A DNA stretch of 64,000 nucleotides from assembly GCA_029552245.1 (NCBI GenBank), contig JAKPDW010000084.1:124001-188000 (forward strand). The letters are read 5' to 3'. The translations under genes and the position numbers were made by a program. Positions 13,281-22,792 of the stretch are shown here, piece by piece. Source of the stretch: Deltaproteobacteria bacterium (GTDB lineage: Bacteria > Desulfobacterota > Desulfomonilia > UBA1062). The stretch's first letter is position 1; each line of letters begins with the position of its first letter. The notes under the pieces were generated by a model. The model searched no databases. It saw only the letters and a program-made list of their open reading frames with translations, and was not told the origin of the DNA.

Positions 13281-13305
13281 CTACTGGGCGGCTTCCCTGA
13301 GGGTT
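13185..13305. repeat. Sel1-gene 3' end duplication within an inverted repeat
   Basis: 13197-13225 is a near copy of 13269-13298, which spans the Sel1 gene stop codon (one 1-base gap, two substitutions, offset 72). The outer edges form a 13-base perfect inverted repeat, AACCCTCAGGGAA (13185-13197) against TTCCCTGAGGGTT (13293-13305). The duplicated block reads GAAGCCGCCCAGT on the minus strand. Confidence 0.7.
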
Positions 13306-14507
13306 TTCGCCATCTCCTTGGCCTGGGTTATCTGGCTCTGGCTCATCTCGTTCGCCATCACGTCGAGGTAGACGGCCGCGTGCTGGATGCCCTGTTCCGC
13401 CGCGAGCTGGAAGCAGAGGTACGCCTGCGTGAAGTCCTTCGGGACCCCGAGCCCCTTGCTGTAGAGGATCCCCAGGTTGTAGAGGGCCTTGTCGTACCCC
13501 TGTTCCGCGGACTTCTGGTACCACCTCGCGGCCTCCTCGTAGCTCTGCTGAACGCCGAGGCCCTTGGCATACATGAGCCCGAGGTTGAACTGGATCACCG
13601 CGTCTCCCTGATCGGCCGCGAGCCGATACCAGCGTGCCGCCTCCGCATGGTCCTGCGGCAGGCCCAGCCCTTGCTCATAGAAGTACCCGAGGAAACCCTG
13701 GGCCTGGCTGTTGCCCTGCTCGGCTGCCATGCGGAACCAGTAGGCGGCCTCGGTGAAGTCCTGTGGGACGCCCTCGCCGTTGAGGTAGATGGTCCCCAGG
13801 CTGGTCTGGGCGTGGGCGTTTCCCTGCATGGCCGCGACCTTGTACCAGGTGACCGCCTCTTGGTAGTCCTTCTCGACGCCGAGACCCCTGTAGTACATGT
13901 CGGCGAGGTTGGTCTGGGCCGTGACGTCGCCCTGGTTCGCAGCCTTCTGGAACCAGGCGGCAGCCTCCTTGAAATCCTGCCGGAATCCCTTGCCGTGGTA
14001 ATAGATGTTCCCTAGCCTTTTCTGGGACTCGACGTCGCCCTTGCTCGCCGCCTTCCTGTACCACTTCTCCGCCTCGGCATAGTCCTGGGGTATGCCTATG
14101 CCCTTGTAGTACATGAAGGCGATGTTGCTCTGCGCCTTCACGTAGCCTGAAGCGGCGGAGGCGAGAAACCACCTGGCCGCCTCGTTGTGGTCCCTGTTCA
14201 CCCCGAGGCCCTTGTAGTACATCACGCCGAGGTTGAACTGGGCTTCCTCGTTGCCGTTCTCCGCGGCCTTGCGGAACCACCTGGCGGCCTTCGCGTAATC
14301 CTTCTCCACACCCCAGCCGTTGCAGTGGATCAGGCCCACGTTGAACTGCGCCTGGGAATCACCGCTTTCGGCCTGTCTCAAGAGCTCGATGAGCGCATGC
14401 GAGGAGTCCTTGCCGCGCAAGAGACCCGTGGTGGACGAGGTGCTGCAGGCGCTCATGACGAGCGAGGCGATGGCCGCAAACGTGAACGTCAGGATCAAGC
14501 GTCTCAT
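13281..14507 (-). CDS. Sel1-repeat lipoprotein
   Basis: A 408-residue secreted lipoprotein. The signal peptide starts MRRLILTFTFAAI and ends at lipobox VMSAC (Cys about 21). Nine full 36-residue Sel1/TPR-like repeats (pattern A-WFRKAAEQGNAEAQ-NLG-MY-KGLGV-KD) and a partial tenth fill residues 55-385, forming a helical solenoid for protein-protein contacts in the envelope. The ATG at 14507 is preferred over one 33 bases upstream because GGGAGGG precedes it and it puts the signal peptide at the N-terminus. The partner is unknown. The stop region is duplicated downstream. Confidence 0.88.
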   Translation of the reverse strand: MRRLILTFTFAAIASLVMSACSTSSTTGLLRGKDSSHALIELLRQAESGDSQAQFNVGLIHCNGWGVEKDYAKAARWFRKAAENGNEEAQFNLGVMYYKGLGVNRDHNEAARWFLASAASGYVKAQSNIAFMYYKGIGIPQDYAEAEKWYRKAASKGDVESQKRLGNIYYHGKGFRQDFKEAAAWFQKAANQGDVTAQTNLADMYYRGLGVEKDYQEAVTWYKVAAMQGNAHAQTSLGTIYLNGEGVPQDFTEAAYWFRMAAEQGNSQAQGFLGYFYEQGLGLPQDHAEAARWYRLAADQGDAVIQFNLGLMYAKGLGVQQSYEEAARWYQKSAEQGYDKALYNLGILYSKGLGVPKDFTQAYLCFQLAAEQGIQHAAVYLDVMANEMSQSQITQAKEMAKTLREAAQ

Positions 14508-15114
14508 GGGTATCCCTCCCGTCAAGCCATTGAACTCCATGTTCTCCTCGATTCATCCGTATAAGCAAGAATCGGAAATTACATAGTACCACATAAACAT
14601 CCATTGTTCAAGAACCCAAGTGTTCGTTATGCACGGTAAACGTAATAAGCGAGTCGTCTCTCGGGTGGGTTCGCTCTGACCGGGCACCTCGTCTCCTTCC
14701 CGGCGGCGCCGTGGCGCTGGTACCCCGGGCCCGCAGGTCTTGGGGCCTGCGACCGAGGGCCTTAAGGCATGAAAAGGAAGAGGGTTGCACCGATGAACGT
14801 CCTCCTCACGGCTGGGCCATGCCTCGCGGGCCTGCCCCCCTGGCGACGCGCACGGCACCTCACGTGCACCAGGCGCCCGGCGGCCACATCCTGCACCCGT
14901 CTCCCCCGGGGCGACTCCGGGGGGATGTCTCCGGCTCCGTGGTCGCATCGCGGGCACACGCGGTTTGGACCCAGGGTCGCAGGCATCGCCGTTACGTGCG
15001 AGGCGTCGTCCCTCGACGGCGCGTCTCTGGCCCCATGTGGGTGGGTGTGCGCGAGGGGGGCTTCTTGCACCGTGGTGGTACCCGCGTGCCTCGGAGGTGA
15101 GCGCCAGAAATGCC
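14508..15114. other. Long intergenic gap, no gene seen
   Basis: About 600 bases between the Sel1 gene start and the ior leader. Only the AT-rich first 130 bases, upstream of the Sel1 gene, look regulatory; no clear promoter was chosen. Confidence 0.4.
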
Positions 15115-15144
15115 TTGACAGGATGTCCGCATTCACGGGATATT
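15115..15144 (+). promoter_or_regulatory. Promoter upstream of the ior leader RNA
   Basis: TTGACA (15115-15120), 18 bases, GATATT (15139-15144). It points into the structured segment at 15152-15285 and then iorA. The -35 is perfect and the -10 matches 4 of 6. Confidence 0.5.
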
Positions 15145-15151
15145 AGGCGGC

Positions 15152-15285
15152 GATGGAGCGAGAAACGCCCAGGACCTGCGGGTACGGCTATTATTACAGC
15201 AGACTGTATCGCTGCGCCTGCCCGTAGTCCCGGGTGCGTGCGGGAAAGGACACGGGGCCATGGGCAGAAACCCATGGCCCTTTTT
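15152..15285 (+). ncRNA. Structured leader RNA or small RNA before iorA
   Basis: Between the promoter and iorA lies a foldable RNA of about 130 bases with no gene in it. A long stem pairs 15176-15188 with 15216-15227 (12 pairs, one bulge, two G-U), extended by 15165-15173 with 15229-15239. It is followed by a perfect terminator hairpin with five Us. The order promoter, structured domain, terminator, ribosome site and start codon is that of a riboswitch or attenuator, but a free-standing small RNA is equally possible. I could not match it to a known riboswitch class. Confidence 0.5.
15255..15285 (+). terminator. Intrinsic terminator just upstream of iorA
   Basis: Perfect 10-base arms GGGCCATGGG (15255-15264) and CCCATGGCCC (15271-15280), loop CAGAAA, then TTTTT. 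It is the clearest intrinsic terminator in the window, and there is no upstream plus-strand gene for it to end. Confidence 0.85.
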
Positions 15286-15330
15286 CCTTAGGAGTATAAC
15301 TACGTTCGAACAGGGGCGAGGATACACGTG

Positions 15331-17058
15331 ATGAAGAAGATCCTCAGCGGCAACGAGGCGGTGGCGCGCGGGGCGTTCGAGGCGGGGGTGTCCTTCGCGG
15401 CGGCGTACCCCGGCACACCCAGTACCGAGATCCTCGAGACCATCTCGGAGCTCTACAAGGACATACACGCCGAGTGGGCCCCGAACGAGAAGGTCGCTCT
15501 CGAGGCGGCTGTTGGTGCCTCCTACACCGGGGCGAGGGCGCTCGCGGTGATGAAGCACGTGGGGGTCAACGTGGCCGCCGACCCGCTCATGACCCTGCCC
15601 TACACGCTCGTCAGGGGGGGTATCGTGCTCGTGAGCGCCGACGACCCGGAGCTCTTCTCCTCCCAGAACGAGCAGGACAACAGGCACTATGCGCGCTTCG
15701 CGAAGATCGCCCTGCTCGAGCCCTCGAGTTCGCAGGAGGCGAAGGACTTCACGGTCGAGGCGTTCAAGATCAGCGAGGAGTTCGGTACCCCGGTGATGCT
15801 CAGGACCACCACGCGGATCTCGCACTCCATGGGCGTGGTCGAACTCGGGGAGGCGTCGCCGATGAAGGCGCCGACCCTGGAGAGGCACCCCGCCGAGTGG
15901 GTGATGCTTCCCGCAAACGCCAGGCGGAGACACCCGGTCATAGAGGAGCGTATCCTGGCCCTCAAGAAGTTCGCGGAGACGACCCCGCTCAACCGTATCG
16001 AGATGAGCGACGCCTCGCTGGGCATCATAGCCTCGGGGGTGGCCTACCAGTACGCCAAGGAGGCGTTCCCGAACGCATCCTTCCTGAAGCTCGGCATGCC
16101 GTACCCCCTGCCCGAGAGGCTCGTCCGCGACTTTGCGTCCAGGGTGAAGGACCTGTGGATCATAGAGGAGCTGGACCCGTTTGTGGAGGAGATGGTCAAG
16201 GCCCTGGGCATACCGTGCAGGGGAAAGGAGAGGGTCCCTCTCTGCGGCGAGCTGAACCCTGACATCGTGAAGGCTGCGGTCTTGGGCTTGGAGATCCCCA
16301 GGCCCGCCCCGCAGGCCCTGCCTCCCAGGCCGCCTTCCATGTGCCCGGGGTGTCCCCACAGGGCCATGCTGTACGCGCTGAAGAGGAACAAGTGCTTCAT
16401 CGCCGGCGACATCGGCTGCTACACCCTCGGCTTTCTGCCGCCGCTCGACGCCATAGACACCTGCCTGTGCATGGGCGCGGGCATCAACCACGCGCACGGC
16501 ATGTCCAAGGTCTTCGGGCCGGGCGAACAGAAGATAGCCGCGGTCATCGGCGACTCCACCTTCTTCCACTCGGGCATCACGGGGCTGGCCAACCTCGCCT
16601 ACAACAGCGGGTGCGCCCTGGTGGTGATCCTGGACAACCGTACCACGGCGATGACCGGGTCGCAGAACCATCCTGGGACGGGCGTCACCATCTCGGGCGA
16701 AAAGACGACGGACATAGACCTCGAATCCCTGGTGAAGGCTCTGGGGATCCCGTGGGTCCGCACCGTCAACCCGTACGCCGTGAACGAGACCCGGCAGGCG
16801 GTGAAGGAGGCGCTCGACTCGAAGGGCCCGGCGGTGATCATATCCCGCGCGCCGTGCGTCCTCCTCAAGACCAGGGCTGTGCCCGGGACCGTGCTCGAGG
16901 TGGACCCTGAGACCTGCACCGGGTGCAAGGTCTGCATCTCGCTCGGGTGCCCGGCACTTGAATTCGACGGTGAGAAGGCGCATATTAACGGGGTCTGCGT
17001 GGGGTGCAACGTGTGCGCCGAGATCTGCCCTGCAGGGGCAATCGGAGGTGGGTCATGA
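15331..17058 (+). CDS. iorA: Indolepyruvate:ferredoxin oxidoreductase, alpha subunit
   Basis: IorA carries thiamine diphosphate and Fe-S clusters and, with IorB, oxidatively decarboxylates aryl-pyruvates to aryl-acetyl-CoA while reducing ferredoxin. Seen: N-terminal pyrimidine-binding domain (GNEAVARGAFEAGVSFAAAYPGTP), MCPGCPHRAMLYAL near residue 336, GDIGCYTLG, the diphosphate motif GDSTFFHSGITGLANLAYN near 410, and two C-terminal [4Fe-4S] motifs, CTGCKVCISLGCP (about 529) and CVGCNVCAEICP (about 557). In-frame GTG at 15328 is an alternative start. It sits behind a structured leader and overlaps iorB. Confidence 0.95.
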   Translation: MKKILSGNEAVARGAFEAGVSFAAAYPGTPSTEILETISELYKDIHAEWAPNEKVALEAAVGASYTGARALAVMKHVGVNVAADPLMTLPYTLVRGGIVLVSADDPELFSSQNEQDNRHYARFAKIALLEPSSSQEAKDFTVEAFKISEEFGTPVMLRTTTRISHSMGVVELGEASPMKAPTLERHPAEWVMLPANARRRHPVIEERILALKKFAETTPLNRIEMSDASLGIIASGVAYQYAKEAFPNASFLKLGMPYPLPERLVRDFASRVKDLWIIEELDPFVEEMVKALGIPCRGKERVPLCGELNPDIVKAAVLGLEIPRPAPQALPPRPPSMCPGCPHRAMLYALKRNKCFIAGDIGCYTLGFLPPLDAIDTCLCMGAGINHAHGMSKVFGPGEQKIAAVIGDSTFFHSGITGLANLAYNSGCALVVILDNRTTAMTGSQNHPGTGVTISGEKTTDIDLESLVKALGIPWVRTVNPYAVNETRQAVKEALDSKGPAVIISRAPCVLLKTRAVPGTVLEVDPETCTGCKVCISLGCPALEFDGEKAHINGVCVGCNVCAEICPAGAIGGGS

Positions 17059-17630
17059 ACGTTCTCATGACGGGCGTGGGCGGCCAGGGCATCATCCTGG
17101 CTTCCGACATCCTCTCCGAGGTCGTGATGCGCGCAGGTTTCGATGTCAAGAAGTCGGAGATTCACGGCATGGCCCAGAGGGGGGGGAGCGTGATGTCACA
17201 CGTGCGCTTCGCCGGGGAAGTGGCCTCCCCGCTCATCCCCTACGGATGCTGCGACATCCTCGTCTCGTTCGAGGAACTCGAGGCCGCCAGGTACCCCCCT
17301 TACATGAACGGAGGTACCACCGTGATCGTCAACCGGTTCAGGCTGGCTCCCCCTTCGGTCATAGCAGGGAAGGAACCCTACCCGGACGTGGTGCCGATCC
17401 TGAAGGGGTGTTCGGGAAACGTCTACCTGGCCGACGGAACGGCCGTGGCCCAGGCCCTCGGCGAGCGCCGGGCGCTCAACCTGGTGCTCATGGGAGTTCT
17501 CTCGAAGTTCATCGAGATACCGGAGACCCTCTGGGCGGAGGTGATAGCGGACATGGTGCCGGAGCGCATCCGCGAGGTGAATCTCGAGGCGTTCAAGAGG
17601 GGCAGGACGATCGACCTCGTCCGCACATGA
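17055..17630 (+). CDS. iorB: Indolepyruvate:ferredoxin oxidoreductase, beta subunit
   Basis: The 191-residue gamma/beta-type subunit of the 2-oxoacid:ferredoxin oxidoreductase. The opening [20 protein letters not shown] is the family signature, followed by [22 protein letters not shown]-like sequence typical of IorB. The ATG overlaps the iorA stop as ATGA and has GGAGGTGG just upstream, so the two subunits are translationally coupled. A longer in-frame extension inside iorA is not used. Substrate choice among indole-, phenyl- and hydroxyphenyl-pyruvate cannot be read from the sequence. Confidence 0.95.
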
Positions 17631-17652: not shown

Positions 17653-18954
17653 ATGATCTTCAACGAGGAGTTCGAGACCCTGCCGAGGGAGGCCCTGGCA
17701 TCCCTCCAGCTGAAGAGGCTCAAGCAGGTCGTCGAGAGGGTGTACCACACCGTGGGGTTCTACCGGAAGAAGTTCGACGAGGCGGGGGTGAAGCCCGAAG
17801 ACATCAGGTCCCTCGAAGACCTCGGCCGCCTGCCCTTCACCACCAAGCAGGACCTCAGGGACAACTACCCGTTCGGCCTCTTCAGCGTGCCCATGAGCAA
17901 CATCGTCCGCCTCCACGCTTCGTCCGGGACAACGGGCAAGCCCACGGTGGTGGGCTACACCAGGAGGGACATCGAGACCTGGGCCGAGCTCATGGCCAGG
18001 TCTCTGGCGGCCGCCGGCCTCACGAAGAACGACATCGTCCACAACGCCTACGGGTACGGCCTGTTCACGGGCGGCCTCGGGGTGCATTACGGCGCCGAGC
18101 GTCTCGGCGCGAGCGTGATCCCCATGTCCGGCGGGAACACCAAGAAGCAGATCCTGATCCTGCAGGATTTTGGGCCGACCGCCATCTGCTGCACGCCCTC
18201 CTACACCCTCTACCTGGCGGAGGTGGGAGAGGAGATGGGTGTCGACATGCGCTCTCTCAGGCTCAGGGTGGGGATCCTCGGGGCCGAGCCCTGGGGAGAG
18301 CGCATGAGGAAGGAGATCGAGTCCCGGCTCGACATCACCGCGCTGGACATCTACGGGCTGTCCGAGATCATGGGACCGGGCGTGGCCATGGAGTGCATCG
18401 AGGGGAAAAACGGGCTGCACATCTTCGAGGACAACTTCATCGTGGAGGTCATCGACCCGTCCACCGGAGAGGTGTTGCCGGACGGCCAGGCAGGCGAGCT
18501 CGTCTTCACCACGCTCACCAAGGAGGCCTTCCCTCTCGTCCGCTACCGCACCAAGGACCTCTCGAGGCTCATGAGGGAGGTGTGCCGCTGCGGGAGGACC
18601 TTCGTGCGCATGGAACGCGTCATGGGCAGGAGCGACGACATGTTCATCATTCGGGGCGTGAACGTCTTCCCGTCCCAGATCGAGAGCGTCCTCATGGAGA
18701 TCGAGGGCCTCGAACCCCACTATATGCTCATCATAGACCGGGAAGGAGCGCTGGACACCCTCGAGATCCAGGTGGAGGTGAGCGAGCGGATCTTCTCGGA
18801 CGAGATCAGGAGGCTCCAGAACCTCGAGCGGCGCATAGCGAAGGACATCAAGGACTACATCGGCATCACCGCGAAGGTGAAGCTCGTGGAACCCAAGACC
18901 CTGCAGCGCACCGAGGGTAAGGCGCAGCGGGTGGTGGACAAGAGACCCAGATAA
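17653..18954 (+). CDS. paaK: Phenylacetate-CoA ligase
   Basis: An AMP-forming ligase of the PaaK group, making aryl-acetyl-CoA from the acid, CoA and ATP. The P-loop-like [14 protein letters not shown] is near residue 92, [12 protein letters not shown] near 233, and the RTKDLSRL hinge region near 300, with the short C-terminal domain typical of PaaK. Length 433 is normal. Following iorAB by 22 bases, it may either reactivate free aryl acetate or, running in reverse, conserve ATP from the aryl-acetyl-CoA made by IorAB, as proposed for some anaerobes and archaea. Confidence 0.95.
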
Positions 18955-18965
18955 GGGGGTGTCCC

Positions 18966-19397
18966 ATGAAGGTCGAACAGATTTCCATCTTCCTCGAGAA
19001 CAAGCCCGGCGGCCTGTCAGGCGTGACAAGGGTCCTCAAGGACGCGGGCATCAACATCAGGGCCCTGTCGCTCGCCGACACGAGCGATTTCGGGATCCTG
19101 AGGTTGATCGTGGACGACGTGAACAAGGCGAAGAAGGTCCTGAACGACAACGGGTTCGCGGTGGGACGCACCCACGTGATCGCGGTCGAGGTGCCGGACA
19201 GGCCCGGCGGGCTCCACAGCATCCTCGATCTCCTCACGCGCCACAACATCAACGTGGAGTACATGTACGCCTTCGTGGAAAGGAGCGGCGAGAACGCGGT
19301 GATCATCTTCCGCTTCGACGACATAGACCAGGCGATCCAGGTGCTCCTTGACGGCGGGTTCACGGTGCTCAGGGGAGAACAGGTCTACAGCCTGTAG
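18966..19397 (+). CDS. Double-ACT-domain protein of the ior-paaK cluster
   Basis: A 143-residue protein with two ACT domains in tandem (residues 4-68 and 72-140), each with the glycine turn KPGG-G or RPGGLHS between strand and helix. ACT domains bind amino acids or similar ligands. No enzyme domain is present. It starts 11 bases after paaK with GGGGGTG upstream, so it belongs to the operon. Small ACT proteins often accompany phenylacetate-CoA ligase genes; ligand sensing for aromatic amino acids is an inference. A second such protein is encoded at 23023-23478. Confidence 0.9.
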
Positions 19398-19441
19398 GCC
19401 CGGCTTCCCCAGCCGTGATCAAGGCGCACACGGGAGAAGGC

Positions 19442-19846
19442 ATGGCCCGCATAGTCAGGCACGAGGTGAGAGACGGTTTCGGGAGGGAGAACGCCCTCGG
19501 CATGATCGGCAGGGTCTATCTCGTGCTCGGGATCGCCGGGGCGTTGTTCTCCGTCGTCCTGTCGGCGGCGCTCGGCCAGCTCTTTTGGATCGCGGCAGGG
19601 GTCCTCTTCCTCGCGTTCGGCGTCGCCTTCCACGTGCTCTTCGGGGCCTTCGGGGAGGTCATCGCGCTGCTCAAGAGGTCGTGGGGGGTAAAGACGGATT
19701 TCAAGGTCTCCGGCGAGGCCTCGGGCACGATCTTCTTGTGCTCCGAGTGCGGGGCCATGGTGTACGAGTCGAGCGAACGATGTCCGAGGTGTTCCGAGGA
19801 GTTCGTTCCCGGCGGTGAGGGGGCAGCAAGGGATACGGGATCCTAG
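19442..19846 (+). CDS. Membrane protein with C-terminal zinc ribbon
   Basis: A 134-residue protein with two hydrophobic segments (about 22-42 and 45-70) and a cytoplasmic C-terminal zinc ribbon: CSEC near 104 and CPRC near 118. I do not recognise a named family. The ATG at 19442 is preferred over one at 19415 because GGGAGAAGG precedes it directly. It sits between the ACT gene and the TRAP lipoprotein gene on the same strand, 34 bases before dctP, and could be co-transcribed with both. Confidence 0.7.
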   Translation: MARIVRHEVRDGFGRENALGMIGRVYLVLGIAGALFSVVLSAALGQLFWIAAGVLFLAFGVAFHVLFGAFGEVIALLKRSWGVKTDFKVSGEASGTIFLCSECGAMVYESSERCPRCSEEFVPGGEGAARDTGS

Positions 19847-19880
19847 AAGCATATTCATTACCATGAAGGGGGGAGGTTCG

Positions 19881-20930
19881 ATGAAGAGACTGGTTATCGT
19901 TGCAGTGTGCATGTTCGTCGTCGTGGCGCTGTCGGCGTCCTGCTCGAAGAAGGAGGAGCAGGCGCAGCAGCCGGCACAGGAGGTCAAGGCCGAGCCCGTC
20001 AAGCTCACCTACAGCATCTTCTTCCCGCCCACCCACCCGCAGTGCAAGGCGGCCCAGGACTGGGCGAGCGAGATCGAGAAGCGCAGCGGCGGGGCGGTCA
20101 AGATAGACGTCTTCCCGGGCGGTACGCTCACGAGCGCCAACGACTGCTACGACGGGGTGGTCAAGGGGATCTCCGACATCGGGATGTCCTGCTTCGCCTA
20201 CTCGAGGGGGCGGTTCCCGGTCATGGAGGCGGTCGACCTCCCGCTCGGCTACCCGTCGGGGACGGCCGCCACGAAGACGGCGAACGACTACTACAACGAG
20301 ATGAAGCCCGCCGAGCTCGAGGACGTGCACGTACTCTACCTGCACGCTCACGGGCCGGGGCTGCTCCACACCAAGAAGCCGGTCAAGACCTTGAAGGACA
20401 TCAAGGGCATGAAGATCCGTTCCACGGGCCTGTCTGCGAAGGTGGTCGAGGCCCTCGGCGGCGTGCCGGTGGCCATGCCCCAGCCCGGGACGTACGAGGC
20501 GCTCCAGAAAGGGGTCGTTGACGGCACGTTCGCGCCCATGGAGACCATGAAGGGCTGGAAGCAGGGCGAGGTGGTCAAGGCCACCACCGACTGCAGGACG
20601 ATCGGGTACACCACCGCCATGTTCGTGGTCATGAACAAGGACAAGTGGAACCAGCTCCCGCCCGAGGTCCAGAAGGTCTTCACCGATGTCAGCAACGAGT
20701 GGATAGCCGTCCACGGAAAGGCATGGGACGACGCCGACGTCGAGGCCAAGGCCTACGTCGAGGGGCTCGGCAACACCTACATCGTGCTGGATCCCGCAGA
20801 GGCCAAGAAGTGGGAGAAGGCGGTCGAGAACGTGTTGAAGTCCTATGTCGAGGAGACCAAGGCCAAGAACATAGACGGCGAGAAGGCGGTCTCGCTCCTT
20901 CGGGAGCTCATCAAGAAGAACGCGCAGTAG
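19881..20930 (+). CDS. dctP: TRAP transporter substrate-binding lipoprotein, DctP family
   Basis: Periplasmic solute receptor of a tripartite ATP-independent transporter. The signal peptide MKRLVIVAVCMFVVVALSAS ends at a lipobox Cys (residue 21), so the receptor is membrane-anchored rather than free as in classic DctP. The mature domain has the family features: LTYSIFFPPTHP, the conserved KIRSTG with the carboxylate-binding Arg (residue about 178), and MNKDKWNQLPPEVQKVF. The ATG has GGGGAGG upstream. It is followed by dctQ and dctM. The ligand is unknown; proximity to iorAB-paaK suggests an aromatic or keto acid. Confidence 0.93.
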   Translation: MKRLVIVAVCMFVVVALSASCSKKEEQAQQPAQEVKAEPVKLTYSIFFPPTHPQCKAAQDWASEIEKRSGGAVKIDVFPGGTLTSANDCYDGVVKGISDIGMSCFAYSRGRFPVMEAVDLPLGYPSGTAATKTANDYYNEMKPAELEDVHVLYLHAHGPGLLHTKKPVKTLKDIKGMKIRSTGLSAKVVEALGGVPVAMPQPGTYEALQKGVVDGTFAPMETMKGWKQGEVVKATTDCRTIGYTTAMFVVMNKDKWNQLPPEVQKVFTDVSNEWIAVHGKAWDDADVEAKAYVEGLGNTYIVLDPAEAKKWEKAVENVLKSYVEETKAKNIDGEKAVSLLRELIKKNAQ

Positions 20931-20999
20931 GAAGAGCGGCGCATGCGCGGCCCCTCCCGATGGAGGCGGCCGCGCATGCAGCCCGGGGTGGTACCCTGC

Positions 21000-21494
21000 A
21001 TGATTTCGTTCATCAGGATAGAGAAATTCACAGCCCGCCTCTCCGAGAGGGTCAACTGGGCGGGGGCCGCCGCCCTCGTGTTCATGATGCTGATCACGGT
21101 GGCGGACGTCGCGGGCAGGCTGTTCAAGTCCCCCATCCCGGGGACCTACGAGCTCGTGGGCTTCACCGGCGGGGCGGTCATCGCCATGGCCTTGCCGTAC
21201 ACGAGCGTGATGAAGGGGCACATCGCGGTGGAGATCCTCGTCCAGAGGCTGCCCTGGCGGGCGAGGGTGGCTGTCAACGCCCTGAACGCACTGGTGTCCA
21301 TGCTCCTCTTCGCCGTGATCGCCTGGCAGTGCGTGAGGCTCGCACAGAGCATGGAGGCGAGCAGCGAGGTGTCGCTGACGCTCCAGCTGCCGGTCTACCC
21401 GTTCGTCTACGGCATCGCCGCGGGGTGCGCCCTCTTGAGCGTGGTGCTCGGTGTGGAGTTCATAAGGCAGCTCAGGGGAGCGGAGGCCGAATGA
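21000..21494 (+). CDS. dctQ: TRAP transporter small membrane subunit, DctQ family
   Basis: A 164-residue protein with four membrane helices and the DctQ motif near helix 1-2 (MMLITVADVAGRLF, then PIPGTYELVGF). It couples the receptor to the large permease. In-frame ATGs at 20943 and 20976 are also possible; 21000 was preferred because the extension is Arg/Pro-rich and not DctQ-like, although its ribosome site is weaker. Its stop overlaps the dctM start as ATGA. Confidence 0.9.
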   Translation: MISFIRIEKFTARLSERVNWAGAAALVFMMLITVADVAGRLFKSPIPGTYELVGFTGGAVIAMALPYTSVMKGHIAVEILVQRLPWRARVAVNALNALVSMLLFAVIAWQCVRLAQSMEASSEVSLTLQLPVYPFVYGIAAGCALLSVVLGVEFIRQLRGAEAE

Positions 21495-22792
21495 CACCCA
21501 CCCAAACAGGGATCGTCGGGCTCGTTGCGCTCGTCGTGCTGCTCTTCTCCCGCATGCCCGTCGCGTTCATCATGGCGCTCGTCGGGTTCTGGGGGTTCGC
21601 GTCGATCGTGTCGACGGACGCCGCGTTGAACCTCCTCGCCAAGGACGTCTTCTCGACGTTTACCTCCTACAGCCTCACCGTGATACCGCTCTTCGTGCTC
21701 ATGGGCCAGGTCGCGTTCCATTCAGGCATCAGCAGGCGCCTCTTCGACACGGCCCACAAGTTCATGGGCCACCTGCCGGGCGGCCTGGCCATCGCGACCA
21801 TCGGGGCATGCGCCTTCTTCGCGTCCATATGCGGCTCCACCAACGCCACCGCGGCCACCATGGGCTCGGCCACGCTGCCCGAGATGAAACGCTACGATTA
21901 CCACCCCGAGCTGGCCACGGGCGTGGTGGCCTCTGCCGGCAGCCTCGGCATCCTCATCCCGCCGAGCGTGATCTTCATCGTGTACGGCATCCTGACCGAA
22001 CAGTCCATCGGCAAGCTCTTCATATCGGGGATCCTCCCGGGGGTGATCCTGGCCCTCCTGTTCGTCTTGACGGTCCTTGTCTGGGTGAAGCTCAGGCCCG
22101 AACTGGGTCCCAGGGGGCCGAGGTTTCCCCTGAGGGAGAGGATGGCGTCTTTGGCGGGCGTGTCGGAGACGCTCGTCATCTTCGTCCTCGTCATGGGCGG
22201 GCTCTTCGCCGGGGTCTTCACCCCCACGGAAGCGGGGGCCATGGGCGCCTTCTTCACCATCGTCGTCGCCGTGGCCAGGGGCCAGCTTTCCTGGAAGGGC
22301 TTCCTCCAGGCCCTGTCCGAGACCACCCGCATCACGTGCATGATCATGGTGATCGTCGCCGGGGCCACCGTGTTCGGGCACTTCCTCGCCGTGTCACGGA
22401 TCCCCTACGACATCGCGGGCTGGATCTCCGGGTTCGACCTGCCGGCCTGGGTCATCATGGGCCTGATCATCCTCGGGTACGTGGTGGGCGGGTGCTTCAT
22501 GGACGCCCTGGCGCTCATCATGCTCACCATACCCATCTTCTACCCCGTGGTGCTGAAGCTCGGCTTCGACCCCATATGGTTCGGGGTGATCATCGTCCTC
22601 GTCACGCAGATAGGCGTGGTGACCCCGCCCGTGGGGGTGAACGCCTACGTGGTCAGCGGCGTGGCCCGCGACGTCCCGCTGCAGGTGATCTTCAAGGGCT
22701 GCATCCCCTTTATCGCGGCCATGGTCATCCTGACCTTCCTGCTCATACCCTTCCCCCAGATCGCCACGTTCCTGCCGGGTCTCATCAGGTAG
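21491..22792 (+). CDS. dctM: TRAP transporter large permease, DctM family
   Basis: A 433-residue integral membrane protein of about 12 helices, driving solute uptake with a sodium or proton gradient. Family motifs are ICGSTNATAATMGSATLPEMKRYDYHPELATG near residues 116-147, the GSLGILIPPS segment near 154, and MDALALIMLTIPIFYPV near 337, with TPPVGVNAYV near 380. Translation is coupled to dctQ. It ends the plus-strand block; a GC-rich hairpin follows. Confidence 0.95.
   Translation: MTPTQTGIVGLVALVVLLFSRMPVAFIMALVGFWGFASIVSTDAALNLLAKDVFSTFTSYSLTVIPLFVLMGQVAFHSGISRRLFDTAHKFMGHLPGGLAIATIGACAFFASICGSTNATAATMGSATLPEMKRYDYHPELATGVVASAGSLGILIPPSVIFIVYGILTEQSIGKLFISGILPGVILALLFVLTVLVWVKLRPELGPRGPRFPLRERMASLAGVSETLVIFVLVMGGLFAGVFTPTEAGAMGAFFTIVVAVARGQLSWKGFLQALSETTRITCMIMVIVAGATVFGHFLAVSRIPYDIAGWISGFDLPAWVIMGLIILGYVVGGCFMDALALIMLTIPIFYPVVLKLGFDPIWFGVIIVLVTQIGVVTPPVGVNAYVVSGVARDVPLQVIFKGCIPFIAAMVILTFLLIPFPQIATFLPGLIR

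Follow-up and report, generated by a model that had tools for sequence, protein, structure and literature searches.

A putative tyrosine-reading, ribosome-mediated attenuator upstream of the iorAB-paaK operon in a family of Desulfobacterota

The classical trp, his and pheA/pheST leaders of gamma-proteobacteria combine a leader peptide whose ORF carries a run of regulatory codons and stops within arm 2, hairpins 1:2/3:4 and 2:3 that exclude each other, and a U-tract terminator in front of the first structural gene. Attenuators of Trp and branched-chain amino acid operons in Actinobacteria likewise have a leader peptide, a terminator/antiterminator pair and GGCC-type complementary triples (PMC1262725). 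The same survey of Actinobacteria detected no RNA element at operons for Phe or Tyr, and for tyrosine genes in other bacteria it gives T-boxes rather than leader peptides as the means of RNA control (PMC1262725). The tyrosine T-box riboswitches of Firmicutes are switched on by uncharged tRNA-Tyr through an intrinsic terminator and bind the tRNA directly, without translation. In methanogens, indolepyruvate ferredoxin oxidoreductase (IOR) and phenylacetyl-CoA ligase (PaaK) are proposed to assimilate indoleacetate and phenylacetate, which is reported as a route of aromatic amino acid biosynthesis by reductive carboxylation; no attenuator is described there (PMC6737245).

The region in front of iorA in a 64,000-nucleotide stretch of DNA, here called the window, has the same arrangement of parts as the gamma-proteobacterial and actinobacterial leaders, and it shares the GGCC-type triples of the latter (Table 1). 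Unlike the classical leaders, it reads mainly Tyr (only Tyr in the host, Tyr and Phe in relatives, and also Trp in the leaders of DAHP synthase), it precedes the genes for IOR and PaaK, its leader ORF begins almost at the predicted transcript start, and it matches no leader family in Rfam. The two enzymes are those of the methanogens, but here they stand behind a Tyr-reading attenuator in Desulfobacterota-type bacteria. The element is best explained as a ribosome-mediated attenuator of the trp/phe/his-leader type that would sense Tyr-tRNA and switch on an operon of most likely biosynthetic role when tyrosine is short; the probability of this reading, judged from sequence, is put at roughly 0.92.

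Table 1. Positions, in the window, of the iorA leader element and the genes around it
Feature	Positions	Strand	Remarks
Sel1-repeat protein, nearest upstream gene	13281-14540	-	divergent
Sigma-70-type promoter	15115-15144	+	TTGACA 15115-15120, 18-nt spacer, GATATT 15139-15144
Leader peptide ORF, MERETPRTCGYGYYYSRLYRCACP	15153-15227	+	ATG 15153, stop TAG 15225-15227; Tyr codons starting at 15183, 15189, 15192, 15195 and 15207; 17 orthologous full leaders
Arm 1 (protector strand)	15165-15188	+	from the MFE fold; the first Tyr codon overlaps it
Arm 2	15216-15239	+	core CTGCCCGT 15218-15225, then TAG stop; partner is arm 1 or arm 3
Arm 3, GGGGCCATGGGCAG	15254-15267	+	ATGGGCAG 15260-15267 pairs with the arm 2 core (antiterminator) and overlaps GGGCCATGGG 15255-15264, the 5' arm of the terminator
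Arm 4 and U5 tract, intrinsic terminator 3:4	15271-15285	+	arm 4 is CCCATGGCCC 15271-15280; perfect 10-bp arms 15255-15264/15271-15280, T5 at 15281-15285
iorA, indolepyruvate ferredoxin oxidoreductase alpha	15328-17058	+	TIGR03336, above cut-off
iorB, indolepyruvate oxidoreductase beta	17052-17630	+	
paaK-type phenylacetate-CoA ligase	17653-18954	+	TIGR02155, 643 bits vs cut-off 646
ACT domain pair protein	18966-19397	+	PF19571

The promoter scored 10 out of 12 and outranked every other promoter-like site within the window's first 20 kb, and transcription is predicted to start at about 15150-15153. An earlier note on this DNA had placed a TTGACA promoter before iorA, followed by a compound stem and by the strongest intrinsic terminator of the window, with 10-base arms and U5, 46 bases before iorA and with no upstream gene to end; all of these statements held. 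The terminator stem has 11 counted pairs, the longest among the terminator-like sites in the 64-kb window (the runner-up has 9), and ends about 46 nt before iorA, whose start is GTG 15328 or ATG 15331. As the nearest upstream gene lies on the minus strand, the terminator ends no upstream gene. The segment 15150-15292 folded with -68.9 kcal/mol, compared with -52.1 +/- 4.5 kcal/mol for shuffled sequences (z = -3.8, 0 of 200), and the compound stem of 15165-15188 with 15216-15239 was found in its minimum free energy fold.

The genes for both IOR subunits and the arylacetate-CoA ligase share one operon, and the gene order iorA-iorB-paaK-ACT was kept in those loci of the family whose contigs are long enough. 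The ACT gene is followed, at 19415-22792, by a gene for a 143-aa protein without a match in Pfam or NCBIfam and by a TRAP transporter (DctP, DctQ and the large permease). The first two remain linked in most related loci on sufficiently long contigs, and this may therefore be the aryl-acid uptake system.

A short ORF overlooked in the earlier note sits inside the compound stem. It encodes a peptide of 24 amino acids, MERETPRTCGYGYYYSRLYRCACP, with five Tyr codons and the run YGYYY at codons 15183-15197. Dinucleotide shuffling of the region produced a comparable aromatic ORF in just 4 of 2000 sequences, and among ORFs of 15-40 amino acids on both strands of the window there is one other of such aromatic kind. 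The ORF has no clear Shine-Dalgarno sequence and an unusually short 5' untranslated region, and its efficient translation is an assumption.

The following course of events is proposed. RNA polymerase would start at about 15150, and a ribosome would load very near the 5' end of the transcript to read the 24 codons of the leader. With ample Tyr-tRNA the ribosome would reach the TAG codon inside arm 2 and mask this arm, while in an untranslated leader arm 1 would pair with arm 2. In both cases arm 3 would be available to arm 4, and the hairpin of the two would terminate transcription at 15281-15285. With scarce Tyr-tRNA the ribosome would stall on the YGYYY codons and cover arm 1, so that arm 2 could pair with arm 3, the terminator would not form, and iorA-iorB-paaK-ACT would be transcribed. 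The parts needed for this are in place: the Tyr codons are in arm 1, the stop codon is in arm 2, and the 1:2 and 2:3 pairings are mutually exclusive. The cognate 1:2 duplex of the host has an energy of -29.2 kcal/mol. When only the RNA 3' of a ribosome halted on the first Tyr codons was folded, with arm 4 not yet made, the 2:3 antiterminator was obtained.

The comparison covered 20 genomes from the taxonomic family of the window that share this iorA. The element was present before iorA in 18 of them, with 17 full leaders and one cut by a contig end; two family genomes of this set (G006 and G010) have the iorA ortholog without the leader. The 17 peptides are 20-24 amino acids long and rich in Tyr and Phe, with runs such as AYYYRFYF, AYYFFTFF and AYYFYFYY in the relatives, and all end with Pro-stop; the host leader is the only one free of both Phe and Trp. 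In the leader frame 110 of 387 residues are aromatic; reading in the two alternative frames gives 55 and 40. A TTGACA box was found 5' of the leader ATG in 17/17 full leaders, and the distance from the chosen -10 box to the ATG is 5-11 nt, which makes the leader ORF nearly leaderless. An intrinsic terminator between the ORF and the first gene was kept in all leaders. A scan for a leader with terminator upstream of iorA at about 68 more distant loci showed no such design, so that the attenuator at iorA appears to be confined to the window's family.

With arm 1 masked, the 2:3 antiterminator was predicted in silico in 16/16 aligned leaders, and 98% of its pair cells were kept, compared with 18-44% for controls with a slid partner. 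The terminator 3:4 kept 99% of its pair cells, with no double changes. The covariation check suggested earlier showed that the pairings are kept in homologous regions, although genuine double changes are rare: a single 2:3 pair has one, from C-G to U-A (G022 and G023). Arms 2, 3 and 4 are highly conserved, hence the small number of double changes, and the case therefore rests on the conservation of the reading frame, the alternative fold and the target genes. The sequence of arm 1 varies freely between genera. Duplexes of arm 1 with its cognate arm 2 (-17.4 kcal/mol) were more stable than duplexes with the arm of a relative (-14.9 kcal/mol; p = 6e-4 in a permutation that ignores kinship). The protector stem 1:2 is strong in the host and most other leaders and weak in G012, G015, G009 and G008.

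A covariance model was built from the iorA leaders including that of the host, whose own match is by construction. Within the family the model also matched upstream of DAHP synthase, whose gene is the first one for making aromatic amino acids, and where a leader (e.g. RYYGYYFWF...PPVG-stop) with a terminator was found in 18/18 genes with the full upstream region read. The host DAHP synthase leader, MMNASAHMFYGYYFWFTGVWPPVG, is located on the minus strand of contig C53 at about 137.6-137.8 kb (L165/L237); it has Tyr, Phe and Trp codons (FYGYYFWF), and its antiterminator fold matches. At E <= 0.001 per genome, matches were obtained in 55 of 395 genomes of the phylum, with about 0.4 expected by chance; these E-values are rough. 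The model leans to aromatic codons by construction, but the downstream genes serve as an independent check.

The downstream gene was inspected at 48 sites outside the family (E <= 0.001). It encodes a PLP aminotransferase of family NF005305 at 22 sites, shikimate kinase (AroK) at 7, DAHP synthase at 6, chorismate synthase (AroC) at one, and ADH synthase, an alternative entry enzyme of the shikimate pathway, at 3 in other families (L196, L199, L221). Further sites precede metallo-beta-lactamase-fold proteins (2, with aromatic leaders; L190, L220), ADP-forming CoA ligases (2), a LivK-type binding protein (1) and a putative 2-isopropylmalate synthase (2); 2 others have no assignment.

Across the phylum, aromatic leaders stand most often before the gene for the NF005305 protein (L182-L184, L188, L192, L193, L195, L197 and others), which is probably the aromatic aminotransferase. 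The ADP-forming acyl-CoA ligase genes are preceded by Tyr/Phe-rich leaders such as SYYYYYYWRGSP and a terminator (L189, L202), and their products possibly activate aryl acids. On contig C405 of genome G013 (L130, L235), which contains no close iorA ortholog, the Tyr leader MTTHACIRAYRYGYYYREGRCP and a terminator precede the gene for the LivK-type binding protein and two permease-like genes; this system probably takes up tyrosine or aryl acids. The leaders before the putative 2-isopropylmalate synthase (L198, L218) are Leu-rich, e.g. MRLFQLLTLCLKLLVPG, and have similar terminators.

It seems reasonably probable that Tyr/Phe(/Trp) attenuators constitute a phylum-wide regulon of the Desulfobacterota, which would make IOR-PaaK biosynthetic, and that the leader ORF in the window's family is read from a nearly leaderless transcript. 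Besides IOR-PaaK, such a regulon would take in shikimate-pathway enzymes, the aminotransferase, transporters and CoA ligases.

The presence of genes for IOR and PaaK does not by itself prove the direction of the pathway, and IOR has been characterised in archaea as an enzyme of peptide fermentation (PMC6737245). The enzymes could accordingly be oxidative and degrade tyrosine, with the attenuator as described and the Tyr leader restraining expression for another reason. This is unlikely, as a switch that opens when Tyr runs short would make no sense for tyrosine degradation and the host DAHP synthase bears the same device. Because the operon would open on Tyr shortage, as would DAHP synthase of the host, its most probable purpose is the synthesis of aromatic amino acids and not their degradation; aryl acetates would be activated by PaaK and then carboxylated reductively by IOR. 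The host genome encodes PheA and TyrA as well, and the IOR-PaaK route would therefore be a supplement to these enzymes and no replacement.

Among the possibilities raised in the earlier note, a riboswitch or attenuator of an aryl-pyruvate operon or a small RNA, the attenuator stood up, while the other two did not. The assignment as an attenuator is based on the run of relevant codons in a short ORF (the host peptide and the 17 leaders as a set), a terminator between this ORF and the first gene (15254-15285), an antiterminator that excludes the terminator on stalling (in silico, 16/16 folds and 98% of cells), and target genes that belong to the metabolism of the codon amino acid (IOR-PaaK, DAHP synthase, AroK, AroC, ADH synthase and the aminotransferase).

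A promoter, a compact fold (z = -3.8) and a terminator ahead of a metabolic operon would also be expected of a riboswitch that binds an aryl acid, an aromatic amino acid or a similar ligand and uses the intrinsic terminator as its expression platform. This reading is very improbable. The conserved part upstream of the terminator consists of the aromatic-codon ORF and the switching arms, with variable arm 1 and no aptamer-like core. Searches of the element against Rfam 15 at gathering and relaxed thresholds gave nothing credible; of the Rfam amino acid leader families (Trp, Phe, His, Leu and Thr) none was listed up to E = 5. The element is expected to respond to charged Tyr-tRNA through a translating ribosome and not to a free ligand, so that the in-line probing with aryl acids suggested earlier would be unsuited.

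A free-standing small RNA with its own terminator, unconnected to iorA control, would agree with the complete promoter-to-terminator unit and the absence of an upstream gene, but is just as improbable as the riboswitch, since the element lies directly 5' of iorA in 18 genomes, carries its aromatic codons in frame and recurs with the same architecture ahead of other aromatic biosynthesis genes. A direct sensor of uncharged tRNA-Tyr of the T-box type, as known for tyrosine genes of other bacteria (PMC1262725), has a negligible probability, since neither the gathering nor the relaxed Rfam search found a T-box in the element, 15 more distant iorA loci, mainly from Firmicutes, had none in Rfam either, and the leader looks like a translated ORF in 17 genomes.

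The mechanism class of the Tyr-reading attenuator is classical and known; its target, its Tyr specificity, the nearly leaderless ORF and the phylum-wide set appear to be new. Searches of the open literature, as distinct from subscription journals, brought up no earlier account of IOR-PaaK behind a Tyr leader attenuator, nor of such an attenuator in this phylum, and the main text of a broad terminator-based survey (PMC2965389) mentions neither aromatic leaders nor these bacteria. The Tyr-shortage switch common to IOR-PaaK and DAHP synthase would be regulatory evidence for biosynthesis, and the direction of the pathway becomes testable. The leader codons predict the amino acid to which each target answers, and this would aid the annotation of the NF005305 aminotransferase, the LivK-type transporter and the ADP-forming CoA ligases. 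The findings suggest that the control of aromatic amino acid metabolism in a large, mostly uncultured group of anaerobes rests on translation-coupled attenuators outside Rfam.
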